Below, one piece after another: positions 689 to 20,485 of a stretch of 20,485 nt of DNA (position 1 is its first letter; each line of letters opens with the position of its first letter). The position numbers and the translations under genes were made by a program. Source of the stretch: a virus; IMG/VR virus record IMGVR_UViG_3300044729_000700, positions 1-20,485 of that record, one strand, 5' to 3'. The notes beneath the pieces were generated by a model. The model had not been told where the DNA came from. It ran no database searches and saw only the letters and a program-made list of their open reading frames with translations.

Positions 689-1794
689 TAGGTGATGCCC
701 AGCGTGGAAAAGTCCTTGACGTTGTACGGCATGTAGACCAGCTTTTTCTGCACGTATCCCGGCCCGTCCGGTGTCGGGCATTTAAGCAGCCGCCCGTATC
801 CGTTCAGTGCCTGCGGGTCAGCAACGGCCACCGGCAGCAGGTCTGTGTTGTTTCCGTTCGGGTCCGGTCGCCAAACCGTGATTGGCGAGAATTCATAGTC
901 GCTGCGGTTGTCGCCGAACCATTCAGTCATATCCGTTGGCGTAACCAGCGACCCGTCGACGTTCGGCTGGAATGCGAAAATCATTTCATTGAAGCCTTGG
1001 TCTGGTATCTGTAAAAACCATGACTTCGGATTGTGCGCGAACACGACGCCACGCCGGAAATACAACTTGCCATCCCGCCAGTGGTCTTCCTTGACGATGT
1101 CGTTTATCAGCAGCTCGTATGCCGGGAACGTGTATCGCAGCCGCTGCCCATCCTTGTCGGACTGCGTGATGGTGACTTCGGCACTGTTGACCGCATCCAA
1201 GAAGTTGTCCCATGCTGCGTCCCAGTCCCGGTGCCAGGTCCAGTAGGTAATCCGTTTCGTGTGACTGCGTTTATTTACATTCTGCACGTTGTCGTTGGCA
1301 GAATTGACAATTGCCACCTCGGCACCGAATTGCGGTGTCGGCAGGTAATCAGGAATCACTCGGCTGGTTGCTGGCGATATCAGCGTGTGGTCCGTCGATG
1401 CCTCAAAGATACCGATGAACTGTGCAGTCGGTGATTGCTCGCTGTATTCCTCAAAGGCAATGTCAACCCGTGGCACAATCTGCTCAGGTTCGTTGGCAGG
1501 CAGGCCATCGACTGTCCGCTCGTACCGAGTGACAGCGTTGGTGAAGTTGCAGACGACATCAAACACCGCTTTGGCTTGCGTGTCGTTTCGCCTGCGTGGT
1601 TGCCGCTGGTAGCAATAAACTGGCTGAGCCACGCCGGTTATCAGATACTCCGTCCCGATTGTCGGCAGGCCAGCCGTAGCCAATGCCGCAGCCGGTCCAC
1701 TGGCGTCAACCTGCCAAGTTTCGGTGTAGTCGTACTGGAGGAAACCGTCGACCAGCCGCTCGACCAATTCCTGATTCGTTCGGTTAATTGCCAT
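688..1794 (-). CDS. Hypothetical tail protein downstream of tape measure (368 aa)
   Basis: The ATG at 1794 overlaps the TAA stop of the tape measure gene (TAATG), so the two are translationally coupled. The 368-residue product is soluble, rich in Trp, Tyr, Asn and Asp, and looks mostly beta. Examples are YWTWHRDWDAAWDNFLDAVN near residue 185 and the repeated hydrophobic/aromatic strands after it. There is no signal peptide or transmembrane helix. Position directly after the tape measure is where distal tail or baseplate hub proteins are encoded in siphophages, and the size would fit. I see no diagnostic motif (for example no peptidase or lysozyme domain), so 'distal tail/hub' is inferred from gene order alone. 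Confidence 0.7.
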   Translation of the reverse strand: MAINRTNQELVERLVDGFLQYDYTETWQVDASGPAAALATAGLPTIGTEYLITGVAQPVYCYQRQPRRRNDTQAKAVFDVVCNFTNAVTRYERTVDGLPANEPEQIVPRVDIAFEEYSEQSPTAQFIGIFEASTDHTLISPATSRVIPDYLPTPQFGAEVAIVNSANDNVQNVNKRSHTKRITYWTWHRDWDAAWDNFLDAVNSAEVTITQSDKDGQRLRYTFPAYELLINDIVKEDHWRDGKLYFRRGVVFAHNPKSWFLQIPDQGFNEMIFAFQPNVDGSLVTPTDMTEWFGDNRSDYEFSPITVWRPDPNGNNTDLLPVAVADPQALNGYGRLLKCPTPDGPGYVQKKLVYMPYNVKDFSTLGIT

Positions 1795-3086
1795 TAGTTA
1801 ATCGCGTCTCGCTGAGTTTGTTGGCGTTCCAAGTTTTCATTCAGCCGCTGTAACTGTTGGTTCGATTGCTGCTGCAATTGCAGTTCCCGCTGCCGTTCTT
1901 CCGTGCGTTCAATGATGCCTGGTGCCAGCCCGACCTGCCGCTGGATGGTGTCTTGGACGAGGGCTTGGCTAACTGTGTCTTGGCTCATGAACGGGTTGAC
2001 CGTGTTTAGCGTGCTAATCAGCGTCGTTCCGATGCCTCGCCCGATTTCGTTTACGCCGAAATTGCCACGGTTGGCGAATCCCTCCCGTGCGTTGCGGAAC
2101 ATTTCCAGCGTTCCGGCCAATGCCGGTGCAATGTCGGCGACCATCTGCGTCTTGAATCCCTGCCACGCCATCGACAATTTGTCTACTTCGTCGGCAGTTT
2201 TCATGATGGACTCAGCGGCATCGCCCTGCGTTACGCCCAGCTCGTTAGCCTTCTGAATCAACGCATTAACACCAGACTCGCCTTGGCCCAGCAATTGGAC
2301 CAACTTGCCCTCCGAGGTGCCGAATAGCTTTGTAATGAAAACGCCTTGGTCTTCGTTACTAAGCTTGCTAATGTCCGCCGCCAGCGTTCGCAACTGGTCG
2401 ACAGCGTCCATCGTGGACAATGCAGCGACTTGGTCGATCTCATAGCCCAGTTCTTGGAAGAATACTTTTGCCTTGCCCATGTCACGGCTGGCCAATGCGA
2501 TGTTATTCCGCATTGCTTCGATGACGCCTAAGGCAGTGCCGCGCTCCAAGTCGCCGCCAATAGGTGCGGTCAGTGCAAACTGCAACCGCTCAAAGTCGTC
2601 CAAGGCCATGCCGAACTTTTCGGCGAAGTCTTGGTTTTTGTCCAGCCTGTCGAACTCGTCGCTGAATTGGCGGATAGCTTCGTTGACGGTGTAGAACCCA
2701 GCAGCGTATTTGGCCAACTGGCCTACGTCGCCTCCGAACGGCATCATCGCCGTGGCATTTTTACCGCCAGACGCCATAGTCGTTTTCATGCCCTTGGCCA
2801 TCTTGGCCTGTTCAGCCGCCAAGTTCTTTGCCGCACGCTCAGCGGTAATCAATTCCGCACTGACCTGCGACCATGCCCGCTCATACTGGTCAACGGACAA
2901 CTTGCCAGCGTCCATCAACTTGTTCAGCCTGGCGTAGGCTTGCTGTGCCTTTTCCTGCGGTGTCGTGTCGCCAAGTATCTTCTTCATCGCCGACACTTCG
3001 GACCGGCTGCTGACTAGGCCACGGGTGAAGCTTTGCGTATCGGCGACCATCTTGTAGGACAGCGTGTGTATTGTCGTGCTAGCCAT
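1794..3086 (-). CDS. Tail tape measure protein (short, 430 aa)
   Basis: This protein sets tail length and occupies the tail lumen before DNA ejection. The N-terminal 100 residues are strongly helical and coiled-coil-like, rich in Ala, Lys, Glu and Gln. The central block (about 210-270) carries the recurrent tape-measure motif: QELGYEIDQV, then LRTLAADISKLSNEDQ, then ITKLFGTSEGKLVQLL with the Phe-Gly pair at 255-256. The C-terminal 40 residues are a Gln/Arg/Glu-rich helix. No clear membrane segment is seen, which is unusual for large tape measures but common in short ones. Its start overlaps the frameshifted end of the tail chaperone gene, the standard order. At the known scaling of about 0.15 nm per residue, the tail would be about 65 nm (inference). 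Confidence 0.9.
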   Translation of the reverse strand: MASTTIHTLSYKMVADTQSFTRGLVSSRSEVSAMKKILGDTTPQEKAQQAYARLNKLMDAGKLSVDQYERAWSQVSAELITAERAAKNLAAEQAKMAKGMKTTMASGGKNATAMMPFGGDVGQLAKYAAGFYTVNEAIRQFSDEFDRLDKNQDFAEKFGMALDDFERLQFALTAPIGGDLERGTALGVIEAMRNNIALASRDMGKAKVFFQELGYEIDQVAALSTMDAVDQLRTLAADISKLSNEDQGVFITKLFGTSEGKLVQLLGQGESGVNALIQKANELGVTQGDAAESIMKTADEVDKLSMAWQGFKTQMVADIAPALAGTLEMFRNAREGFANRGNFGVNEIGRGIGTTLISTLNTVNPFMSQDTVSQALVQDTIQRQVGLAPGIIERTEERQRELQLQQQSNQQLQRLNENLERQQTQRDAIN

Positions 3087-5718: not shown

Positions 5719-6044
5719 CAGACAACCACCTCCGTCGCCTGAATCATCAGCTGCGTGTTGCTGTCCATCGCCAGCACCCGGCTAACTTCGTAGTAAGTTT
5801 GGGTAAGCGGCTGGTAGATTCGCATGTTCGGCAGGATTCCGGCGTAGTACCGCATTTCGATAACGTGCGAGACGGTCGCTTCAATCTGCCTGCCACGATA
5901 CGTTTCGCCGCCACTGACTGCGGTGATGCTACACGGCAGGTCACGCCACAGCGTCGTCGCAAAAGCAGGGTCGTCGCTGCCTTCTGCGGACGTTTCGCGG
6001 TAGACGTGAACGCGATCACGGTACTGGCCAGCCTTTAGTCTCAC
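5718..6044 (-). CDS. Head-tail joining (stopper) protein (108 aa)
   Basis: The GTG at 6044 overlaps the connector's TGA (GTGA), giving the start MRLKAGQYRDRVHVYRE. The family pattern follows: 'L-W-R-D-L-P-C-S-I-T-A-V-S-G-G-E' and 'R-G-R-Q-I-E-A-T-V-S-H-V-I-E-M-R-Y' around residues 32-65, then a Tyr-rich strand region ending ATEVVV. This is the SPP1 gp16 / phage head-tail joining family, a small beta-barrel that closes the connector channel after DNA packaging. The length is typical of the family. The gene sits between the connector/adaptor protein and the gp10-like protein, as expected. Confidence 0.86.
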   Translation of the reverse strand: MRLKAGQYRDRVHVYRETSAEGSDDPAFATTLWRDLPCSITAVSGGETYRGRQIEATVSHVIEMRYYAGILPNMRIYQPLTQTYYEVSRVLAMDSNTQLMIQATEVVV

Positions 6045-6658
6045 GGGTAGTTACTCCGTTTGAGCCGGGCCAGCAGGTTTTCGTAGGCTTTGAATCCGCC
6101 AGTGATGACTTCGTTGCCCATCATCGTCCGCTCTTCAAAGTAATAGCCAATCAGCAGCAGCATCGCCTGTTTGTAAATCTGGGGGACTGCCCCGCCATTG
6201 GCACCATAGCCCGCCGTGTAGGCTAAACTGATGGCGTCCCAGCGGTCGTAGGCTGTCGGCCATGCCGCGTTGCTATTAAGCCACACGCGGCGACGGTCCG
6301 TGTCCAGGCTGTAGCTGGAGGCCGAAAATGTCTGCTGCGTGTTGGATGAGTCGTAGTAGGTGATCGAAGTGACCGCCGAGACTGGCCGGTAATAGAGTTG
6401 CCAGTATTCTTCGTCGCCGGACCAGTTGAACTTTTCCGTAACCGTGCGAGATATGAGGCAAACCTGACAGTCATGCTCGACCTGCTCCCGTGCCTGCTGA
6501 ATGAGGTTTTGCAGATGCTCGTCGTGGGCCGTGTCAGCGTCGGCGATTTCGAGATGCTTTTTCACCTCGCTCAGTTGCAGCGGTTCCACTGCCGGTGTCG
6601 TCTGCGTGATCGACTTGTCCGCTGTCCGCAATGGTCCGCTGATTGAGAATCCGCCCAT
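6041..6658 (-). CDS. Head-tail connector (adaptor) protein, HK97 gp6-like (205 aa)
   Basis: The ATG at 6658 is chosen because a GAGG lies 7 bases upstream; a TTG two codons earlier is possible. After about 25 divergent residues comes the family start 'P-L-Q-L-S-E-V-K-K-H-L-E-I' with 'DEHLQNLIQQAREQVEHDC', the helical adaptor core of gp6/gp15-type proteins. Next is a beta region containing 'Y-Y-R-P-V-S-A-V-T-S-I' and 'AISLAYTAGYG', and a final helix pair (AMLLLIGYYFEERTMMG). Adaptors form a dodecameric ring under the portal. The 5' end overlaps a small upstream gene by 125 bases in another frame, which is unusual. The 3' end overlaps the joining protein by 4 bases. Confidence 0.88.
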   Translation of the reverse strand: MGGFSISGPLRTADKSITQTTPAVEPLQLSEVKKHLEIADADTAHDEHLQNLIQQAREQVEHDCQVCLISRTVTEKFNWSGDEEYWQLYYRPVSAVTSITYYDSSNTQQTFSASSYSLDTDRRRVWLNSNAAWPTAYDRWDAISLAYTAGYGANGGAVPQIYKQAMLLLIGYYFEERTMMGNEVITGGFKAYENLLARLKRSNYP

Positions 6659-6779
6659 TTCCAAACCTCACCAGACAATCTGCCACACCGGGATACACTT
6701 CGATCACGTCATCGGCCTTGCGACCGTTCCAGTTGCGGAGCAGCTGAACCTGCACCTGCTGGACCTGTTTCATTTTCAT
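6534..6779 (-). CDS. Small phage protein overlapping the connector gene (81 aa)
   Basis: The ATG at 6779 overlaps the glycosyltransferase stop (ATGA) and has GGAG 5 bases upstream. The first 45 residues follow a pattern common in small proteins encoded near head-tail genes: 'V-Q-L-L-R-N-W-N-G-R-K-A-D-D-V-I-E-V' then 'G-V-A-D-C-L-V-R-F-G-N-G', a small beta motif of unknown function. Such proteins normally end soon after this point. Here the frame runs on for about 36 more residues, Arg/Thr/Gly-rich and low in hydrophobics (ending EKASRNRRR), inside the connector gene. The tail is probably an unstructured by-product of overlap. The N-terminal part and signals are convincing; the function is not known. 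Confidence 0.7.
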   Translation of the reverse strand: MKMKQVQQVQVQLLRNWNGRKADDVIEVYPGVADCLVRFGNGRILNQRTIADSGQVDHADDTGSGTAATERGEKASRNRRR

Positions 6780-7453
6780 GCCTGCTGCTCCTTGCGTTCG
6801 AGGTACTGCTGCCGCCACTGCTCTGGGTAGATGTGCTGCGGTTGCAGGTTCTCGTCGTAGATAGCGATCATCTCTTCCATGTGGCCGATGCGGCAGTCGA
6901 TGTCTACCCAGACCCGCCGCCCAGCCTCACGGAACTTGTTCCAAAACCAGATGTCATCATCGATCTTGGCGTCGGTCCACTTGCCATCCGCATCCGGCCT
7001 GCACCAGAACCAAGGCTTCGGCACGTCCTTGAGCCGGTCTAGCTTGATGGCCGTTAGCCCGAAATGTGCCGTTGTCACTTCCAGCGGTTGGCCGCAGTAT
7101 TCCACCCGCGTCTCGCCGCCCATCGTGAACAGCGGAATCTGCTTTCCCCGCTTGCACTGCATTGCCGCCACAGCGTCGTATTTGTCGTCGCTGTACAGCA
7201 CGCCAAGCAAACGGTGAACGTGTTCGACGGTAAAGCAGCTGTCGAAGTCCACCGTAATCGCCACGTCAATTCCGTGGTCGATAGCGTCTTCCAGCATCCG
7301 CTGCATGCATTGCCCGTAGAACACGCCGCCCGAAACGACAATCGGAATCCCTGCCTTCTTAAAAGCGTGGTCGATAACGTTCCGGCTCCAGACGCATTCG
7401 TATCTGGGAGCCGTCATCAACGCGGCGACCTTCGCTTCCTTGTGTGTATCCAT
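6776..7453 (-). CDS. GT-A fold glycosyltransferase-like protein (225 aa)
   Basis: This looks like a compact nucleotide-sugar-dependent glycosyltransferase (GT2-like). The first 60 residues give a Rossmann-type start (AKVAALMTAPRYE, then IPIVVSGG). Residues 63-71 read DVAITVDFD, with the metal-binding D-x-D at 69-71. A middle strand, TTAHFGLTAIKLDRL (127-141), resembles the acceptor-side 'G-x-x-x-I-x-R-x-x-L' segment. Residues 165-167 are DDD (IDDDIWFWNKFREAG). A late His (G-H at 190-191 after VDIDC) fits the third metal ligand of GT-A enzymes. No membrane segment is present, so it acts in the cytoplasm. Lying inside the head and connector genes, it could modify virion proteins (inference). 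Donor and acceptor are unknown. Confidence 0.75.
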   Translation of the reverse strand: MDTHKEAKVAALMTAPRYECVWSRNVIDHAFKKAGIPIVVSGGVFYGQCMQRMLEDAIDHGIDVAITVDFDSCFTVEHVHRLLGVLYSDDKYDAVAAMQCKRGKQIPLFTMGGETRVEYCGQPLEVTTAHFGLTAIKLDRLKDVPKPWFWCRPDADGKWTDAKIDDDIWFWNKFREAGRRVWVDIDCRIGHMEEMIAIYDENLQPQHIYPEQWRQQYLERKEQQA

Positions 7454-7488
7454 AGCGTTCTGCTCCGCTGCTGGTAACCGTCTTATGA

Positions 7489-7911
7489 TTAACCAACCTT
7501 GACGTAATCGGCATTGTTGGTGTTTGCGGAGGCGGCAATTTCCTTTTGCAGGATGCCGACCACCGAGGTTAATACCGGCCCATTGGTCGTGGTGTCCGGT
7601 GTGAGTCCGACTTGCAGGTAACGCTTGCGGCCATTCAGGTCAACGTGCAGGACGGCTTCAGCCGCTGCGGTGTTGTCGATGGTAAAAGCGTAGGTGCTGT
7701 TGAACGTGGCGAAGTTGGATGCCGTGGTGTCGTCCGATTCCTTCAATGAAACGACGACATTGGTGCTGTTGGTGTTCAGTTCCGCACCACAGGTAATACT
7801 GATGGTTGCGTAATCGGCACCTTGGCAATCGAGGTTGGCAGTCCGTGCAGTAGTCACGGCGGTAATCGGGGCGAGCAGCGTGGAATACACGCAGCTTTGG
7901 AGAGTCTTCAT
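7489..7911 (-). CDS. Hypothetical head accessory or decoration-like protein (140 aa)
   Basis: It begins MKTLQSCVYSTLLAPITAVT and is Thr/Asn/Ala-rich with alternating hydrophobic residues: 'A-T-I-S-I-T-C-G', 'V-V-V-S-L-K-E-S', 'V-L-H-V-D-L-N-G-R-K-R-Y-L-Q-V-G-L'. An all-beta virion protein is likely. The translation start is strong: AAGGAA lies 7 bases before the ATG, the same spacing as in the capsid gene, and both genes open with ATGAAGACT. It is the first gene after the capsid terminator, the usual place for a capsid-stabilising or decoration protein. I do not recognise a family. A minor capsid or neck role is equally possible. Confidence 0.72.
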   Translation of the reverse strand: MKTLQSCVYSTLLAPITAVTTARTANLDCQGADYATISITCGAELNTNSTNVVVSLKESDDTTASNFATFNSTYAFTIDNTAAAEAVLHVDLNGRKRYLQVGLTPDTTTNGPVLTSVVGILQKEIAASANTNNADYVKVG

Positions 7912-7946
7912 TTATCGGTTCCTTGTCAGGTTTTGGTTCGTTCAGG

Positions 7947-7979
7947 AAAAAAGGGGGAGGCAGCGAACCGCCTCCCCCC
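7947..7979 (-). terminator. Intrinsic terminator after the major capsid gene
   Basis: On the minus strand, GGGGGAGGC (7970-7978) pairs perfectly with GCCTCCCCC (7953-7961). The intervening bases form a short UUCG-type loop, and six T follow at 7947-7952. This is a textbook Rho-independent terminator. A second perfect 7-bp hairpin (7987-8008) lies between it and the capsid stop codon. The next start codon is 36 bases past the end of the T-tract, so the next gene depends on read-through or on a promoter I cannot see. Confidence 0.88.
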
Positions 7980-7986
7980 GACGGTC

Positions 7987-8008
7987 CCAAGTGGAGCAGA
8001 ACACTTGG
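7987..8008 (-). other. Hairpin just after capsid stop codon
   Basis: The arms CCAAGTG and CACTTGG are perfect 7-bp complements around an 8-base loop. They begin 5 bases after the capsid stop. There is no T-tract directly after it, so on its own it is not a terminator. It probably protects the 3' end of the capsid message or works in tandem with the GC-rich terminator that follows. Confidence 0.6.
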
Positions 8009-8012
8009 CTTA

Positions 8013-9368
8013 CTAGGATGCGTTGCACTTGACGCCGATGATCGGTCCGCCAAGCGATGCAGTGCCGCGTTCGTGGCAGTTGATGTCGAAACGTTCGGTT
8101 GCCCGGAAGTAGATGCTGTCGGTGTTGAAGCCGTAGCTGTTATCGACTGCGATGCTGATGCCACGCTTCTGGCCCATCGATACCGCTCGGCTCAGGTCGC
8201 CAAAATAGGCGATGAACTTGCCGGACAGGTCAGTCGTTGGCGCTCCGCTGTCCATCGCTTGGCAGAACACGACTGGATAGCCCATGAAGATTGGACCCAT
8301 GCCGGTTGCGTAGTTGGCCACGTTGACAGCTTGAGCGCTGGCCAACCGTTGCAGAACGTTGTAGTAAATCGAGCTGTGGCAGTACCACTTCGGCTGAATG
8401 CCAGGCAGCATCAGCAATTTGCCCATCGCTTCCTCAAAGGATGCAATGGTGATCTCGGCTGGCGTGTCGATGTTGGTTGCGGTTTGTGCGTAAGCACCCG
8501 CTGCCAAGGCATTAGCCAAGCCAAGGATGCCGCCGTAAGTGCTGGTGCCGTCGCCAAGGAACAAGCATTGGTCTTCCTTGACGGCAAAACACTGGGCGAC
8601 TTCTTGGGTCAGCAAGTCACCCAAGGCCACGACGCTGTCTTCCGGCAGTTCGCTGGACCAGCTGGAGAATACCATCAGCTTGCGAGCTTCCAGCCGAACT
8701 TGGTCGAATGCCAAATCCGATGCGGTGACGCTGCTGTTTTCGCCAGCGAAATAGCCAGTGAATCCGCCAGCCCGGCGAGGAATCAGGGTGACGCCCGGTC
8801 CCATCGGGTAGACACGGCATTCCCGGCGAGCAATGCCGTACTCTTCGACGTTGCGGATGATGGCCGATTCCAGCACTTCGGGCACCAGATAGCCGCCCTT
8901 GGTGTTGTCGCTGGTCGACATGGCGTTTTGGATGCCGTGGTTCTTCAGCCACTCGTTTGCACCCTGATGGCCGTTGATACTGAGGAAGAACTGACCGGCG
9001 ATGTAAGCTTCCTTGTCAGCGTTCGGGCCTTGGAAAGCCTTGACCACGCCGCCCTTCGCCTTGGCCGGAACTTTGACCGCAGCGACGTTCAGCTCGCCAT
9101 TGGCGACAACTTCGTCCGATTGCTTGTCAGCGGCAAACCGCTCGCGGGCAATCTGCTTCTGTGCGGCTTCGACCTTCAGCAGCCGGTCGAGCTTCGCTTC
9201 CAGTTCGCCGAGCTTTCCGGCTTGGTCGCCCTTGCCTTGAACCTCGTCGATTTCCTTTTCCTCGTCAGCGTTCAGATCACGCTGTTCGGCCTTGGCGACG
9301 GCCAAAATCGCAGCGACGCGGTCGTGCTGCTCCTGAATCGCTTCCCGCAATTCCTTTACAGTCTTCAT
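8013..9368 (-). CDS. Major capsid protein, HK97 family (451 aa)
   Basis: This is the main head shell subunit. Residues 1-100 form a charged helical coiled coil (MKTVKELREAIQEQHDRVAA onward), matching the scaffold-like delta domain of HK97-type capsids that the prohead protease removes. Cleavage would fall near residues 100-115 (inference). The mature part has the conserved opening 'S-T-S-D-N-T-K-G-G-Y-L-V-P-E' near 151-163, then N-arm and E-loop regions, and a P-domain/A-domain core including 'YGGILGLANAL' and 'GYPVVFCQAM'. No separate scaffold gene is present, which fits a self-scaffolding capsid. The start has AAGGAA 7 bases upstream of ATG. Hairpins flank the gene on both sides, suggesting a separately controlled transcript. 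Confidence 0.95.
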   Translation of the reverse strand: MKTVKELREAIQEQHDRVAAILAVAKAEQRDLNADEEKEIDEVQGKGDQAGKLGELEAKLDRLLKVEAAQKQIARERFAADKQSDEVVANGELNVAAVKVPAKAKGGVVKAFQGPNADKEAYIAGQFFLSINGHQGANEWLKNHGIQNAMSTSDNTKGGYLVPEVLESAIIRNVEEYGIARRECRVYPMGPGVTLIPRRAGGFTGYFAGENSSVTASDLAFDQVRLEARKLMVFSSWSSELPEDSVVALGDLLTQEVAQCFAVKEDQCLFLGDGTSTYGGILGLANALAAGAYAQTATNIDTPAEITIASFEEAMGKLLMLPGIQPKWYCHSSIYYNVLQRLASAQAVNVANYATGMGPIFMGYPVVFCQAMDSGAPTTDLSGKFIAYFGDLSRAVSMGQKRGISIAVDNSYGFNTDSIYFRATERFDINCHERGTASLGGPIIGVKCNAS

Positions 9369-9403
9369 GTGTCCATTCCTTTTTTGTGCCGACCGTCAGC
9401 AGC

Positions 9404-9465
9404 AAAAAAAGAAATCGACTGCGACAGCCGACGTTGGTTTCCAAACGTCAGCCCGTCGAGTCGAT
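9404..9465 (-). terminator. Long hairpin with T-tract in the capsid gene leader
   Basis: On the minus strand the bases at 9459-9465 and 9414-9420 (ATCGACT with AGTCGAT) pair. A CGAC/GTCG block follows, then a GACGTT/AACGTC block with a GG/CC cap around a three-A loop, interrupted only by single-base bulges and two G-T pairs. TTTCTTTTTTT follows immediately (9404-9414). It has the form of a strong Rho-independent terminator. It sits between the protease stop and the capsid start, with only 36 bases from the end of the T-tract to the capsid ATG, too little for a promoter and leader. It could therefore be a regulated attenuator or an mRNA-stabilising or processing element. Confidence 0.82.
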
Positions 9466-9526
9466 GACAACCGAACTCTAGCGGGAGTTTTTCAAAATGT
9501 GTGGCAGGACATTCCCGCCGTCTGAA

Positions 9527-9554
9527 ATAATACGCTTTTCAATTACTGAATCAA
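9527..9554 (-). promoter_or_regulatory. Candidate sigma-70-like promoter upstream of the capsid gene
   Basis: The minus strand has TTGATT (9549-9554) and TATTAT (9527-9532), 16 bases apart. This matches the -35 box at 4 of 6 and the -10 box at 5 of 6 positions. The -35 overlaps the protease stop codon. Transcription would start near 9520, giving a leader of about 150 bases that contains a 6-bp inverted repeat (9481-9486 with 9513-9518) and the terminator-like hairpin at 9404-9465. Host promoter preferences are unknown, so this remains a candidate. Confidence 0.35.
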
Positions 9555-10225
9555 GTGTCCCGTCTTTTTAGTCGTATTGCCCGCAGTTTTGCGGCAATTA
9601 GCTTCGGGAATCGCTGCTCCACTGGCGTTGCTGGCTTGGCCGGGTCGAACAATTCCTGCGGCGGATGGCGGAACATCGACGCCGAGGCCATCGCTTTCGG
9701 TGCGTCCTTGATGTCGACCACTTCATCCACCAGCCCGATGGCCAGTGCTTCCTTGGCGGTGAACCAAGTTTCTTCGGCCACCATCGCCAAAATCTCGTCA
9801 CGGCTGGCATCCATCTTGGCAGCGTAGGCATCGACCAGCGTTTCGCTGTATTTGTCCAGAATGTCCGCCGTTTTCCGCATTGCTGCCGCATCGCCGATGG
9901 CAATCGTGTGGGGCTGGTGAATCATGACCATTGCCCGTGGTGCGGCTGTAACCTTGAATCCGCTGACAAGGAACAGGGTTGCCGCCGATGCCGCCAGTGC
10001 GTCAACGCTCACCGTCACCTCGCCGCCATGCCGCCGCAGGTTTTCAACCGCTGCGACAGCTTCATCCACGCTGCCGCCTGGTGAATTGACACGCACGCTA
10101 ATCGGACCGTCGCCCAGCATCCCCAGCCCTTCGACGATGGAATCCGCCCCGATAAATCCCCAGTCGGCTGGCCCGATCTGGCCGTAGACAAACATTTCCC
10201 GTGTCTTCTCGTTTACCCGCAGCAT
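9551..10225 (-). CDS. Prohead (head maturation) protease, ClpP-type (224 aa)
   Basis: This serine peptidase should cleave the delta domain from the capsid protein during head maturation. The start is taken as the ATG at 10225, because GGAGG lies 5 bases upstream; an ATG four codons earlier also reads in frame. The ClpP/S14 signature is clear: 'V-R-V-N-S-P-G-G-S-V-D-E-A' near residue 45, nucleophile Ser80 in LAASAATLFL, and catalytic His103 in MVMIHQPH. The third-position element reads EETWFTAKEALAIGLVDEVV. The acidic residue here is Glu rather than the usual Asp, so the third catalytic residue is uncertain. The position between portal and major capsid genes is standard. A basic C-terminal tail (LRAIRLKRRDT) follows the fold. 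Confidence 0.92.
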   Translation of the reverse strand: MLRVNEKTREMFVYGQIGPADWGFIGADSIVEGLGMLGDGPISVRVNSPGGSVDEAVAAVENLRRHGGEVTVSVDALAASAATLFLVSGFKVTAAPRAMVMIHQPHTIAIGDAAAMRKTADILDKYSETLVDAYAAKMDASRDEILAMVAEETWFTAKEALAIGLVDEVVDIKDAPKAMASASMFRHPPQELFDPAKPATPVEQRFPKLIAAKLRAIRLKRRDT

Positions 10226-10836
10226 TCCAGCCTCCATTCCAAGTCGAAGTTAAAGTCGTTTCTGTCCGGCATTCTGCTTGGCCGGTAACATCCAAACTGC
10301 TCCATATACGCAACCGCACCCGATAGCGAGTTATCCGGCAGTCCGTCGTAGTGCCTGAACCCGTCGGTATCCGTTTCGTGTATTACCCGCTGGACCGCCC
10401 GACGCCGGAAGTAAGGTTCCATCGTCTTCAGGATTGCAAGGTCCATGCCCTGTGCGTCGGTCATCAGCGTCTGGACCTGCTTGACGCCAGCCCATTCAAG
10501 GAACTCGCCGAGGTTAATCACCTGCACTTCCACCTCGCCCTGTTCGCTCAGGTCCGCCTGCGGATACAATTGCCGGGCCTGTTCGGTGCAGATGCCGAGG
10601 CTGCTGCTGACTCCATTCGTGTTGTAACGCCGCATCTTTGCCCGGCAGGTTGCTAGACCGCATGCCGCTTCGACTACGTGAAAGATATCGGCGACGTGTG
10701 CGTTCTGCGTCCGCAGCCAAGCCGCCGCATCTGGCAGCGGTTCGAACATGAAAAAGCGGTCGTGCCCTTGCAGTAGCCGCAGCATTTCGGCATCGCCACG
10801 GTTTGGACCGACGCAGACAAAGACGCGCTCACTCAT
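10213..10836 (-). CDS. FkbM-family SAM-dependent methyltransferase (207 aa)
   Basis: The first 120 residues carry a Rossmann-fold methyltransferase pattern. Motif I is 'F-V-C-V-G-P-N-R-G-D-A-E-M-L' (residues 6-19). The SAM-ribose-binding acidic residue lies in 'M-F-E-P-L-P-D-A-A' (30-38). Then come 'VEAACG', 'N-T-N-G-V-S-S-S-L-G', 'V-I-N-L-G-E-F-L' and 'TLMTDAQGMDLAILKTM', the FkbM-type 'D-x-x-G-x-x-x-x-x-L-K' block with Gln where Glu is common. FkbM enzymes O-methylate sugars and polyketides in many bacteria; the substrate here is not predictable. It overlaps the portal gene by 4 bases (ATGA) and the protease start by 13. That makes it an unusual inserted gene in the packaging operon rather than a foreign island. 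Confidence 0.82.
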   Translation of the reverse strand: MSERVFVCVGPNRGDAEMLRLLQGHDRFFMFEPLPDAAAWLRTQNAHVADIFHVVEAACGLATCRAKMRRYNTNGVSSSLGICTEQARQLYPQADLSEQGEVEVQVINLGEFLEWAGVKQVQTLMTDAQGMDLAILKTMEPYFRRRAVQRVIHETDTDGFRHYDGLPDNSLSGAVAYMEQFGCYRPSRMPDRNDFNFDLEWRLECCG

Positions 10837-12389
10837 AGGCTGGACAGCTCCTTGACGCCATCAGCCCGCCAGCCGGTGACCAGTGACTTGACCGCTTCGA
10901 CAAACTCCGCTGGCTGCTTGTCCGCTGCCGCCAGTAGTGCGTCCTTGTGCCGTCTGCAGTATCCGGCCACGTCGCAGTCCTCCGCCCCAGCTGTCGATTC
11001 CAGCCGTTCCTGCCAGCGAGCATAGAACCCATCGACCCAGTCCACGAAGTTCTTCGCCCGCAGGCCCCGCTGCTCTATCCGGTTGCATTCGACGCCGACC
11101 ATGTGGTGGAGCTGAGCTTGTGCCGCTGGTGCTGCGTTCGGTGCTTCCGCCTCGTCTGCGTCGTTGTCGTTTGAGTTGTCGCCGCTGGGGTCAACCTCGT
11201 CGGTCGTAATGTTCGGGTTGGAGTAGACATCGCCGCCGCTATACGGGTTCATATCCAATTTGGCCCGTGCCTCATTCGGGTTGATAATCTTGTGGACGAT
11301 GCCCTGTGCAAGCGTGTCCACGGTTGTCTTCATGTCGGTCATGATGAGCGTACCGCGGTTAAACTTGAAGTAATACTGATCCGCCATCTTTTCCCGGTCA
11401 GTCAGCAGTTTGGCGCGGCACTGCATTTCCCATTTGACCAGCCAGCGGTTAAGGCAGGACTGCAATTCCGACAGCTGCTTTTGTTCAAGGCTGGAGTAGC
11501 TGCTGCGGCTTTCATCGCCAGGCATCGATTCAAGGCCGAACCAGAGCATAATGTCGGTGCGGTTGAACTTCTGCTGCTCGACAAACTGGGCGTCGTGGTT
11601 CGACATCGTCAGCACATTGGCGGTGACGCCTTCCCGCAGCAAGCCGACCAGTTCCCCGTCTTCGTTGTGGTGCTTGCGGAATGTCGTTAGGAACTCCGCC
11701 GCCTGTTTCTCGTCACGGAATGAACCGGGGGGAGCTTGCAGCATTAGCCGCCCAGTGAATCCCTTTTCTGATTGCTTCGTCGCCAGCCGCTGCCCATTCA
11801 GCCCCATTGAAATCGACTCACGGGCGACACTGGCAAACGACTTGCCTTCGATGCCGTCATAGCCAAACCCTTGGATGTGCAAAACGTCCCGGTCATGGAT
11901 AACCACGGTCGTCTCAGGGTTGGCGGTCATTGCCGCTTCAAAGTCGCCAGCGTAGGCAGCGATGCGGTCGTGATCCATGTTCGGGTTGGTGACGTGGTAC
12001 TTCTCGCCGCCGACCATGTAGGTCTTCGTCCGGTCAGGCATCAGCGGCAGCAGTTCCGTCGGTCTGCCTGCTTGGCGAATCACCACGGCACGCCCGTTGC
12101 CCCAACCGATGGCGTGGCCCTGTATAGTCTCCTTCCACACGTCAGCGGTCTGGTAGTCGTTCGGTTGCCACCGCAGCAGATTCCAAACTGGATGGCCAAT
12201 GCCGTCGTCGCTGCCGCCTCCGTCAATCTTGCGGCGAATCTCCAGCGGCATCTGGCCGACCATGCCGCTGATTTTCGACATGGCATACCACACGCCAGCC
12301 AGTCCCAGCATCGTATGCGGGTTTACTGGCGTCACGCCGTCATCGGTTCCGTTGAACCATTTAATCAGGCCATTGAGTCCGAATCCCAT
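10833..12389 (-). CDS. Portal protein, HK97 family (518 aa)
   Basis: The portal forms the dodecameric DNA channel at one capsid vertex. The ATG at 12389 has GGAG 8 bases upstream; a GTG three codons earlier has none at a usable distance. The sequence follows the family: N-terminal 'G-L-A-G-V-W-Y-A-M-S-K-I-S-G-M-V-G-Q-M-P-L' near residue 30, 'HPVWNLLRWQPN', 'IHDRDVLHIQGFGYDGIEGKS' near 165-185, and 'WFGLESMPGDESRSSYSSLEQ' near 285-305. After the clip and wing regions comes an acidic Asn/Asp/Ala-rich linker (about 400-425). A predicted helical C-terminal extension follows, ending KELSSL, and is longer than in many relatives. Its order between terminase and protease is standard. Confidence 0.95.
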   Translation of the reverse strand: MGFGLNGLIKWFNGTDDGVTPVNPHTMLGLAGVWYAMSKISGMVGQMPLEIRRKIDGGGSDDGIGHPVWNLLRWQPNDYQTADVWKETIQGHAIGWGNGRAVVIRQAGRPTELLPLMPDRTKTYMVGGEKYHVTNPNMDHDRIAAYAGDFEAAMTANPETTVVIHDRDVLHIQGFGYDGIEGKSFASVARESISMGLNGQRLATKQSEKGFTGRLMLQAPPGSFRDEKQAAEFLTTFRKHHNEDGELVGLLREGVTANVLTMSNHDAQFVEQQKFNRTDIMLWFGLESMPGDESRSSYSSLEQKQLSELQSCLNRWLVKWEMQCRAKLLTDREKMADQYYFKFNRGTLIMTDMKTTVDTLAQGIVHKIINPNEARAKLDMNPYSGGDVYSNPNITTDEVDPSGDNSNDNDADEAEAPNAAPAAQAQLHHMVGVECNRIEQRGLRAKNFVDWVDGFYARWQERLESTAGAEDCDVAGYCRRHKDALLAAADKQPAEFVEAVKSLVTGWRADGVKELSSL

Positions 12390-12402
12390 CAGTGCCACTC
12401 CA

Positions 12403-15318: not shown

Positions 15319-15728
15319 TAGATATCCTCCGGCTGCGGAATGTACCCCTGCTCGATTGCTTGCTCGCGGGTCAAGATGTACGGTTGCCAGCTTGGCGGCA
15401 CCATATCAGCAAGCCGAACTGTCTTGCCAACCATTCCAGCGACGGCCTGTTTAATTCCGTCGGCCTCTTCCTTGGTAATGCCGTTGTTGGCGACAAAGAT
15501 GTCCAGCAACTGCTGCAACTCCTCGCCGTCAGCTTCAACGTGAATCGGCACCGTTTCCGTGTCGGGCAGGCTCAGAAGCGGCCAAGCAGTGCCGTTCGGA
15601 TGGTTGATGATGGGGCAATACTGTTCTGTGATATAGGCTTGGTCGCGCAAATGCGACGGACGCAGCAGCCGCATGATGGCTTGGTTGAATGGCTGGATTA
15701 GCTGCGGGTCAATTGGGATTAGTGGCAT
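15318..15728 (-). CDS. Hypothetical protein (136 aa)
   Basis: The ATG at 15728 overlaps the preceding TGA (TGATG) and has GGGGAG about 7 bases upstream; a TTG five codons earlier is less likely. The protein is mixed helix and strand, proline-rich at both ends (MPLIPIDPQLIQPFNQAIMR at the start, EQGYIPQPEDI at the end). The middle is helical (EELQQLLDIFVANNGITKEE, then DGIKQAVAGMVGKTV). No catalytic motif, signal peptide or membrane helix is seen. I do not recognise a family. It sits between the beta-sandwich protein and the Ig-like protein, so a structural or assembly role is guessed from context only. Confidence 0.7.
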   Translation of the reverse strand: MPLIPIDPQLIQPFNQAIMRLLRPSHLRDQAYITEQYCPIINHPNGTAWPLLSLPDTETVPIHVEADGEELQQLLDIFVANNGITKEEADGIKQAVAGMVGKTVRLADMVPPSWQPYILTREQAIEQGYIPQPEDI

Positions 15729-16519
15729 CAGTACGCTCCCCAATATGCATTCATGTTCGATTCAATTGCGCTGATTTCTGCCTCTGAAAGCTCGGAACTG
15801 AAATAGACCGATTCGCAATGGTTTGAAATACCAGCCCCGGTAGTCCTGCCCAATATGATTGGTGCTGCTGCTGGTGTTTCCGTGTAGCCAGTCGATGTTG
15901 ACCACGAACCGCCGTTTCTTCTCAAGCGTGCATTAGGGCTGGCTTGAATTTGCCCAGTAAAAATGCTGAATGTATTACCGGCACTTGCCAAAGACGCACC
16001 AGAACCGCCGGTGACGCGAATACGCACCGCATTTCCGCTGGCAATTTGTTGCATTCTAAACGCAACGCTTGTCACTACTTCTGAATCGTCCGCTTGAACT
16101 CGCCGAGTGACGCACCAGGTAAATGGGCGAGTGATCGCCACATTCGCGCCGGTCGTAAGGATTTTATTGATGCCGAAGACGACAGCCGGTTTGCTGTTTT
16201 CAGTTTGCAGTACTCCGCCTGAAACAATCAGCGGCTGCGTTCCTGCTGTTGCATTAACTGCATTGTTTCCACTTTTCTGGTCATACCAAGTAGTTACAAA
16301 ACCGTCGCCAGCCCCGACGAAAGATAATAGCGAGGATGTGTCTAAATCCTTACTAATAAATGGGACGTCTAGCTCCGCCGAATCGCTGGAGCGACGAACT
16401 CGGATCGCTGCCCCGCCGTAGTTGTCACGGATTTTTCGTAATGAAAAAGCAGCGGCGACAGTTGGATAGCGGTCTACAATTCCCGTCCCGCTTCCTCCAA
16501 GCAACAGCAACAGTCCCAT
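15728..16519 (-). CDS. Virion beta-sandwich protein, arabinofuranosidase-B/LamG-like (263 aa)
   Basis: A GGAG lies 8 bases upstream of the ATG. After a hydrophobic, Gly-rich N-terminus (MGLLLLLGGSGTG) comes 'A-A-F-S-L-R-K-I-R-D-N-Y-G-G', 'I-R-V-R-R-S-S-D-S-A-E-L-D-V', 'LLSFVGAGDGFVTTWYDQKS' and 'A-T-A-G-T-Q-P-L-I-V-S-G-G-V'. This series is the familiar 'AYSLR..G.AIRVRRSSD...FVG...GFVTTWYDQ' pattern shared by arabinofuranosidase B catalytic domains and many phage adsorption proteins. The rest is a jelly-roll-like beta region. The C-terminal 'SSELSEAEISAIESNMNAYW' matches the end of LamG/concanavalin modules. In phages these domains bind or degrade surface glycans. Catalytic activity here is unproven, and binding is at least as likely. 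Confidence 0.84.
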   Translation of the reverse strand: MGLLLLLGGSGTGIVDRYPTVAAAFSLRKIRDNYGGAAIRVRRSSDSAELDVPFISKDLDTSSLLSFVGAGDGFVTTWYDQKSGNNAVNATAGTQPLIVSGGVLQTENSKPAVVFGINKILTTGANVAITRPFTWCVTRRVQADDSEVVTSVAFRMQQIASGNAVRIRVTGGSGASLASAGNTFSIFTGQIQASPNARLRRNGGSWSTSTGYTETPAAAPIILGRTTGAGISNHCESVYFSSELSEAEISAIESNMNAYWGAY

Positions 16520-17026
16520 CTACTTCGCTCCGTATTTGGCGACCAACTGACCACGGCAGCGGCTGCACCACGCAGGCCCAGTTCCGTTGATGTTCATAAT
16601 GCAGCCTTTATCGGGACAGTGGCCCCACTTGTCAGTGGCTGGACTGGCCTTGATGCCAAGGAAGTGCCCAACTTCATGCTGGACGCAGATGCCTGCCACG
16701 GGTGCCGTGATTGGCCTCGTCTGCGATAGATAGACTTTGCCGTTTCCCATGTAGACGCCAATGGCGTTATAGGTCACCTGCTTCATAAAGTAGAACCGCA
16801 GATGTGGCTTGCTCGACGACTCCACGAACTTGGCACCGGAAACCTTCGACAGGTCCGCCATTGCCTTGCGGATGATGCCGACCGTCTGGGCATTGTTCAT
16901 GCCCTTGAACGCAAAGCCGGGATAATGGCCGTAGACCAGCTGGAACTTGAACTGGCGCGGCTTTCCTGCCTCCATCAGTTCAGGCTGGTCGATTGCTTCG
17001 ATGTCGCACCCGCAAAAGGCTTGCAT
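16520..17026 (-). CDS. Archaemetzincin-like zinc metallopeptidase with an insertion (168 aa)
   Basis: The ATG at 17026 overlaps the preceding TAA (TAATG). Residues 117-124 are H-E-V-G-H-F-L-G, the zinc-binding and catalytic start of metzincin peptidases (HExxHxxG). Further on are His136-Cys137, Cys142, the Met-turn Met144 in 'C-I-M-N', and Cys154-x-x-Cys157. The series 'H-C-x4-C-x-M ... C-x-x-C' is the archaemetzincin hallmark. In the usual motif the third zinc His is three residues after the Gly; here it is 12 after it, so nine extra residues (IKASPATDKWG region) are inserted. Upstream, residues 30-105 form the mixed fold. No signal peptide is seen. Its target may be a host surface or virion protein (inference). 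Confidence 0.82.
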   Translation of the reverse strand: MQAFCGCDIEAIDQPELMEAGKPRQFKFQLVYGHYPGFAFKGMNNAQTVGIIRKAMADLSKVSGAKFVESSSKPHLRFYFMKQVTYNAIGVYMGNGKVYLSQTRPITAPVAGICVQHEVGHFLGIKASPATDKWGHCPDKGCIMNINGTGPAWCSRCRGQLVAKYGAK

Positions 17027-17594: not shown

Positions 17595-18383
17595 TCATGC
17601 AATGGCATCCGGCACTGGATATTCCATGCCAGCCGGTGCGTAGCCAATGAAAACCGTCCACCTGCCCGCCAGTGCCGTCTCAATACTTTTCGGTGTCCAT
17701 TCGTGAACGCCGTCGCCGTTCCAGTTGCCCCACGAATTAAGATTGGCGACGTTTCCGCTGCTGCGTCGCTGCCAGAACACGGTACTGTGACCGCCGCCGC
17801 TCCGTCCGTTGTAACGGTCGACGATCTCTTCGTTGCAGCTGTCGTTCCAAGTTAGGCCGGTCTGAATTGGAAGGCCCTGTTCAAGCCAGTCCAGCATCGA
17901 TTGCAGGTCTTTGAATGGTTTCGTCGTCTGGAGCTTGAACAGGAATTTGTTTGCAGCCGATGCGGGTTGCTGCGGGTTGTATCTCGACGGATACGGCCAG
18001 TCGGATTCAAGGCAAAGGCCGTGCTGGGTTGCCACCCATTGGCCTGCGGAAAGCGTGCTGCCTTGGTCGCCCCGGATGCCGTCTTTTTTCTGGCTTAGGT
18101 AATAAGCCGCTGCCCGGCTGAATGATGCCTTGCGACCAGTTGCGAGGAAGTAACAAATTTGAAACACGGTCGCTAGTGCGTGCCCCTGACATGCACCTTG
18201 CTGGCCTTGGTCCGTAATTGAAACCACGCCCAGCGGGTCCGCTTGCGTGTTGAACTTCGGAAACGTGTCCCGATACCACTTCAGCAGCTCGCCCGATTCC
18301 GTGCCGGTCGATTCCAGCAGCGGCACGTTCTCGCTGTCGATGGCCCAGCCGAGCCGACCTTGTTCCAGTATGCGTCCGCTCAT
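17595..18383 (-). CDS. Papain-like (C1) cysteine peptidase (262 aa)
   Basis: The ATG at 18383 overlaps the preceding gene's stop (ATGA). The core has papain-type catalytic residues with the right spacing: oxyanion-hole Gln59 and nucleophile Cys65 in 'T-D-Q-G-Q-Q-G-A-C-Q-G-H-A', as in papain Q19/C25. The general-base His199 is in 'S-G-G-G-H-S-T-V-F', and Asn216 in 'L-N-S-W-G-N-W-N-G-D-G', the classic 'NSWG..WG..G' end. The first 50 residues are a short, propeptide-like segment. There is no signal peptide or transmembrane helix, so export would need lysis or packaging in the virion. Such peptidases are uncommon among phage genes (general knowledge). Its substrate is unknown. Confidence 0.9.
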   Translation of the reverse strand: MSGRILEQGRLGWAIDSENVPLLESTGTESGELLKWYRDTFPKFNTQADPLGVVSITDQGQQGACQGHALATVFQICYFLATGRKASFSRAAAYYLSQKKDGIRGDQGSTLSAGQWVATQHGLCLESDWPYPSRYNPQQPASAANKFLFKLQTTKPFKDLQSMLDWLEQGLPIQTGLTWNDSCNEEIVDRYNGRSGGGHSTVFWQRRSSGNVANLNSWGNWNGDGVHEWTPKSIETALAGRWTVFIGYAPAGMEYPVPDAIA

Positions 18384-19957: not shown

Positions 19958-20485
19958 CTACCGACCTAGAAGTTGTCGGGCCTTGTTGGCAAGTCCCGAC
20001 CGCACCGGGGCTGTGATGCTGTGTAGCGTTCCTGCCGCCGTCCGAATTTTCCGCTTGGCCCAAACAGAACCACCGCTAACAACACCGACAACCTTGCCAG
20101 CAGCGTTGACCACTGGACCGCCGCTGTCACCCGGTATCGCAAACGCAAACAGCACCAGCGACTTATCGCCAATTGCCGCTACGGTTGATTTAAAACATCG
20201 CAAGCCCTGCCCGCCGCCGAATCCGCAGACACGAACAGACTCGCCCTCCTTGGCGTCGCCGACTTCCAGAACACTGCACCCGTCCGGCGTGTTGCATTGC
20301 AGCACAGCCACATCCGCCTCGCGGTCAGTGCCCCGCAGCGTGGCTTTGTTGGTCGAACCGTCGTGGAAGCTGACGGTGAAAGATTCGTTGCCGTCGGTGA
20401 CGTGTGCAGCGGTCAGAATCGCAGGCCGGTTATCCGCCGCCTGGACGATGCAGCCGGTGCCGGTGCCGCCGTTGCTGTTACCACG
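19958..20485 (-). CDS. Trypsin-like (S1) serine peptidase, cut by window edge
   Basis: The frame is open from the right-hand window edge, so the start lies outside. In the 175 residues seen, the catalytic triad is complete: His28 in 'I-L-T-A-A-H-V', Asp58 in 'D-R-E-A-D-V-A-V-L', and Ser121 in 'P-G-D-S-G-G-P-V'. The N-terminal residues GNSNGGTGTGCIVQ match the typical lead-in to the His motif. A basic stretch (WAKRKIRTAAGT) and helix follow the Ser motif. The peptidase may act on host envelope, host or phage proteins; a signal peptide could lie outside the window. It ends 27 bases before the RMF-like gene start. Confidence 0.88.
   Translation of the reverse strand, partial: RGNSNGGTGTGCIVQAADNRPAILTAAHVTDGNESFTVSFHDGSTNKATLRGTDREADVAVLQCNTPDGCSVLEVGDAKEGESVRVCGFGGGQGLRCFKSTVAAIGDKSLVLFAFAIPGDSGGPVVNAAGKVVGVVSGGSVWAKRKIRTAAGTLHSITAPVRSGLANKARQLLGR

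Follow-up and report, generated by a model that had tools for sequence, protein, structure and literature searches.

A glycosyltransferase and an exchangeable methyltransferase among the head genes of an uncultured phage as a probable virion-glycosylation module

Virus record IMGVR_UViG_3300044729_000700, of which a stretch of 20,485 bases was analysed (the window), raises the question of why a glycosyltransferase (GT) and an FkbM-family methyltransferase are encoded among the genes of a phage head. Both open reading frames (ORFs) are present on the minus strand where a first-pass annotation of this DNA had placed them, at 6776..7453 (GT, 225 aa) and 10213..10836 (FkbM, 207 aa), within a late cluster ordered terminase, portal, FkbM, ClpP-like protease, HK97 capsid, 140-aa protein, GT, connector and tail genes. 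The two enzymes probably form a virion-glycosylation module, in which the sugar added by the first is capped with a methyl group by the second.

By sequence, the GT has no match in Pfam, NCBIfam or PADLOC, nothing meaningful among PDB sequences, and one weak match to an unnamed PHROG family, and it is identified from an AlphaFold2 model and conserved residues. The model is a confident GT-A fold (pLDDT 89, pTM 0.87) consisting of one small GT-A domain, and the closest solved folds are STIV A197 (Z 18.8), the GT domain of LH3 (16.9), Mimivirus R699 (15.8) and COLGALT1 (15.7). Across 30 GT homologues down to 44% identity, the residues D69 and D71 (DxD), D165, D167 and H191 do not vary. The fold and the invariant D69, D71 and H191 bear out the earlier assignment to the GT-A type, including its DxD at 69–71 and its late histidine, while the 'DDD' read at 165–167 has to be corrected to D-x-D, since D166 varies among the 30 homologues. 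On this model the protein is a GT-A enzyme with sugar transfer as its predicted activity, and its fold agrees with protein glycosylation, short of proof.

The methyltransferase scores above cut-off against both PF05050 (E 6.5e-7, 30.1 bits, cut-off 22.7) and the NCBIfam model TIGR01444 (E 4.1e-12, 46.8 bits, cut-off 37.7), while tblastn gave no match to it in isolated phages and its profile found none among solved structures. The gene lies between portal and protease and overlaps both, as previously annotated, by 4 nt with the portal gene and by 25 nt with the protease gene if the latter begins at its first ATG. The dN/dS values of the FkbM gene (0.06–0.125) and the GT gene (0.05–0.12) are low and comparable to that of the capsid gene (0.127), and both are thus under purifying selection and are not chance ORFs. 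This selection, together with the lack of such genes in GT-negative relatives, makes it very improbable that the two are passengers without a common function in a recombination-prone head region, even though the region is mosaic, with exchange of terS, TMP and further genes among close relatives.

Two scans of viral contigs confirmed 133 and 229 relatives of the GT, and 282 were confirmed with the fused form of the GT as query; these sets overlap, the contigs are often fragments, and all counts depend on hidden Markov models (HMMs) built in this analysis. The GT keeps a constant position, between the 140-aa jelly-roll head gene and the connector, down to about 30% capsid identity. The earlier placement between capsid-accessory and connector genes holds, with the addition that a small minus-strand ORF of uncertain start (6534..6818; no Pfam or PHROG family), which is kept in close relatives only (tblastn, 53–100% in the close clade), intervenes before the connector (6041..6664, minus strand; PF05135, phrog_442), which always follows the GT. 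In three relatives (L178, L195 and L201; L numbers are our handles for the loci compared), two GT copies lie near the connector. No tblastn match to the GT was found at E 1e-3 in 50,697 isolated phage records, a search that remote homology could escape. In cellular genomes the GT profile matched two contigs of metagenome-assembled genomes (MAGs) only, one Pirellula and one gammaproteobacterial, and among 397 genomes of the class of the Pirellula MAG it matched that MAG and, weakly, one further genome (E 3e-4).

This distribution bears on whether the GT and the methyltransferase act instead on a polysaccharide of the host cell surface, so as to mask receptors or exclude superinfecting phages. 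Modification of host surface glycans by phage GTs is generally known, the donor sugars would be identical, and a place in the head module suits late expression. However, prophage relatives are absent from the genomes searched except for the two MAG contigs, the GT as modelled comprises just one small GT-A domain, and the gene has a fixed place beside a head protein that changes type along with the GT, so that we regard an action on the host surface as unlikely.

The first-pass annotation had proposed to check whether the two genes co-occur across related phages, and this comparison separates the gene from its function. The FkbM gene of the window has close homologues in 25 loci, in the window gene order wherever this is readable, and two divergent homologues (42–45% identity) in L052 and L078; it is nearly limited to the clade of the window, and many GT-positive relatives lack a homologue. 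Methyltransferase function, on the other hand, co-occurs with the GT very strongly. The controls were GT-negative relatives, drawn from capsid-based scans, that share the capsid, the 140-aa protein and the connector with the GT-positive phages; capsids were collapsed at 95% identity into 65 GT-positive and 15 GT-negative clusters. A methyltransferase, fused or separate, is present in 62/65 GT-positive versus 0/15 GT-negative clusters; restricted to unfused GTs the figures are 26/29 versus 0/15 (Fisher p 3.5e-9, not tree-corrected), and at 60% clustering 10/13 versus 0/8 (Fisher p 0.001). Because the methyltransferase HMMs were built from GT-positive phages and are biased towards them, the unassigned ORFs of GT-negative head modules (53 and 39 ORFs, partly overlapping) were also scanned against all Pfam, and no methyltransferase was detected among them. 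We rejected the notion that the head region is simply a hot spot at which methyltransferases settle as passengers, since the GT-negative relatives have none.

In other GT-positive phages the enzyme is swapped (METHYLTRANSFERASE), a different methyltransferase being carried instead of the FkbM of the window, either in the portal-protease, protease-capsid or terL-portal interval or directly before the GT. The replacements belong to Methyltransf_11 (L043, L097), Methyltransf_23/DUF1698 (L065, L188), another FkbM subfamily (L049, L112, L121 and others), a small unassigned methyltransferase family (L048, L115) and a 'QFGE' family (L051, L071, L154 and many more). Only a weak tie joins the last of these to PF05050, with the L097 copy above and most others below the cut-off. 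A profile comparison of the QFGE family with the FkbM of the window gave no significant homology, and the two are treated as separate families.

L117 and its relatives form a sister lineage in which a Methyltransf_11 domain, its LNIGAG motif intact, is fused to the N-terminus of the GT. In the GT tree, single-domain GTs on the side of the window form one group (SH-aLRT 99) that is nested among the fusions under midpoint rooting, with the long or unplaced single-domain members L210 and L214 outside it, and the methyltransferase state switches at least 24 times on the whole tree and 13 times among single-domain GTs only. That a fused domain was lost and then replaced by a separate methyltransferase is a reading and not a result, as the root comes from midpoint rooting and was not inferred.

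The fusion also bears on an alternative in which the methyltransferase has a virion protein as its direct substrate and works independently of the GT, late expression having made neighbours of the two by chance. Such independence would fit the protease, capsid and jelly-roll genes that separate the two in the window, as well as L025, which retains the GT without FkbM; it is at odds with a methyltransferase physically joined to the GT and with the lack of methyltransferases wherever the GT is missing, and we consider it rather improbable. Of the earlier proposal that the two genes jointly build a methylated glycan on the virion, the functional coupling and the virion setting are supported, because the slot is refilled by unrelated or GT-fused methyltransferases and stays free of them in GT-negative relatives; the glycan, its methylation and the acceptor keep the status of suggestions.

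Additional genes lie beside the GT in some relatives, namely a sulfotransferase (L117, L205, L211), a GDP-mannose dehydratase (L177, L174, L216, L250), an NAD-dependent epimerase (L125, L254) and a second GT (L214). Sulfotransferase, dehydratase and epimerase genes occur in 10/65 GT-positive and 0/15 GT-negative clusters, a difference not significant on its own. In L205 (7167-8472), the sulfotransferase and an ORF that by eye resembles a nucleotidyltransferase adjoin the methyltransferase-GT fusion. In the GT-negative L267 (7933-9260), a cytidylyltransferase similar to CMP-sialate synthetase (PF02348, E 3.9e-24) and an unassigned 210-aa ORF fill the same slot, from the jelly-roll protein to the connector, and possibly specify another sugar coat.

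The 140-aa protein (7489..7911, minus strand; phrog_5707) is the best candidate for the acceptor. Its AlphaFold2 model (pLDDT 85.7) is a jelly-roll-type β-sandwich matching XepA, YomS and the capsid cement protein of BPP-1 (Z 8.5–10.9), and the protein is probably a capsid cement or decoration protein; this role rests mainly on the position of its gene after that of the major capsid protein, because many unrelated β-sandwiches equal the Z of 8.5 obtained with the BPP-1 protein (3j4u_H). A version with a G(D/Q) loop is found in 35/35 GT-negative loci and another, Thr-rich version in 191/194 GT-positive loci, the three exceptions matching the G(D/Q) pattern through a GDT loop in which the threonine is still present. 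The clearest swap is L345/L227, which pairs a capsid 68% identical to a GT-positive one with a jelly-roll protein that shares 61% identity with its counterpart in a GT-negative phage, although capsid identity to the latter is only 44%. Serine plus threonine make up 22.5% of the jelly-roll protein with the GT versus 17.8% without it (p 1.3e-8, not tree-corrected), whereas the capsid protein shows no difference (13.7% versus 13.3%, p 0.44). Since its type and its Ser/Thr content follow the GT, while the Ser/Thr content of the capsid protein does not, the jelly-roll protein leads the candidates; capsid and tail tube proteins are possible acceptors by analogy with mycobacteriophages.

The tight linkage of the GT to this head protein also argues against a GT that glycosylates a modified base in the phage DNA, with the methyltransferase capping that sugar. 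Virus GTs that hypermodify DNA are known, and an N6/N4 DNA methylase occurs in two related genomes; however, the nearest folds act on proteins or polysaccharides, and a Pfam scan of 37 ORFs from two relatives, whose contigs are perhaps incomplete, shows neither a thymidylate-synthase-like nor a hydroxymethylase gene. We accordingly consider a role in DNA modification very unlikely.

In the module as we picture it, the GT and the methyltransferase would be made late in infection along with the head proteins, the GT would move a sugar from a nucleotide-sugar donor onto side chains exposed on a virion protein, the likeliest being threonines and serines in loops of the adjoining jelly-roll protein, and FkbM would next O-methylate and thereby cap that sugar. 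In relatives the cap would come from a methyltransferase of another family or one fused to the GT, and some may add a sulfotransferase or their own synthesis of a deoxysugar donor. The particle might benefit by adsorbing differently or by being masked or protected.

Several points weigh against this interpretation. We infer the glycan, its methylation and the acceptor from sequences and models, and a shared fold tells no substrate. The FkbM gene of the window is not universal among GT-positive relatives and has been cleanly lost in nature in L025 with the GT intact, three clusters with unfused GTs (L057, L106 and L214) have no detected methyltransferase, and the methyltransferase assignment of the QFGE family is weak for most members. 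The Fisher tests ignore shared ancestry; the capsid tree contains only 3 well-supported independent GT switches (7 on all branches), and methyltransferase presence follows the GT in 2.7/3 of these on average and never the opposite, a number that cannot reach significance.

A wider proposal, which we find possible although short of probable, is that of a mobile capsid-coat cassette, in which a jelly-roll cement protein that bears the glycan, the GT belonging to it and a replaceable capping enzyme travel together between related capsids. Phages would then alter the chemistry of their outer coat by exchanging the capping enzyme among several unrelated methyltransferase families and perhaps a sulfotransferase.

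Virion glycosylation has so far been documented in a few actinophages and archaeal viruses. It is established for phage-encoded GTs of mycobacteriophages, with Che8, Corndog and Myrna as actinophage examples and with reports of glycans on subunits of the capsid and tail tube, and a GT with a methyltransferase in Rhodococcus phages is interpreted likewise (Freeman et al. 2023, as cited in PMC12363180, PMC12619734 and PMC13313380). The window resembles these systems in a phage-encoded GT, here located among virion structural genes, and differs from them in that its GT has no detectable sequence match to isolate GTs (tblastn, E 1e-3) and that this type of GT has a constant place next to a jelly-roll head protein and a methyltransferase partner that is swappable or fused. 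In STIV, the jelly-roll capsid protein is glycosylated, and A197, which is essential and whose substrates are unproven, is proposed to glycosylate it (PMC10551542). A197 is the best fold match to the GT of the window (176 residues at Z 18.8, rmsd 3.4), but the two share 14% identity and A197 belongs to an archaeal virus. To our knowledge, no methyltransferase is linked to A197. The GT domain of LH3 (PLOD3), COLGALT1 and Mimivirus R699 share the GT-A fold (Z 15.7–16.9), the first two being collagen protein glycosyltransferases, but these are eukaryotic or giant-virus, multidomain proteins with 10–18% identity to the GT of the window.

Streptomyces phage KimJongPhill has the nearest arrangement among isolates, since its gp4-gp6 (a UDP-sugar gene, a methyltransferase and a GT) lie directly upstream of terminase and portal and its methyltransferase is a homologue of the fused domain (E 5e-17 with an HMM built in this analysis). 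The differences are that these genes precede the terminase and that the GT is unrelated; gp6 was tested as a homologue of the GT of the window, and no homology was detectable. We file the system of the window as a variant of virion glycosylation, as which it would work to judge from its genes and predictions alone, with the swappable capping enzyme, the methyltransferase-GT fusion and the putative acceptor link as the features new to known virion glycosylation. A capsid-linked GT is kept over hundreds of uncultured phage contigs together with a natural replacement series of its modifying enzyme, and if the interpretation is true, phage capsid coats are under selection for a chemical cap, and their likely acceptor can be named. 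The matched GT-positive and GT-negative relatives, and KimJongPhill as an isolate with an analogous gene set, make the idea testable.

The remaining head genes of the window, all on the minus strand, encode a portal protein (10833..12398; PF04860, E 1.1e-61), a ClpP-like head maturation protease (9551..10237; PF00574, phrog_94) and an HK97-fold major capsid protein (8013..9368; PF05065, E 1.5e-34). The head genes are 92–100% identical to those of L005; identity is only about 37% in the tape measure gene (1794-3086, minus strand), a sharp mosaic break, and 47–67% in the two genes after it. Three distinct protease genes lie in one late operon on the minus strand, encoding a Trypsin_2 protease (19958-20485; PF13365, E 2.4e-20), a papain-like C1 protease (17595-18383; PF00112, narrowly above cut-off) and an astacin/matrixin-like zincin (16520-17026). 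The minus-strand gene at 15728-16519 encodes a virion structural protein (phrog_10356) whose match to arabinofuranosidase B (PF09206) at E 4.8e-5 falls short of the cut-off, and this weak likeness perhaps marks a carbohydrate-binding part.

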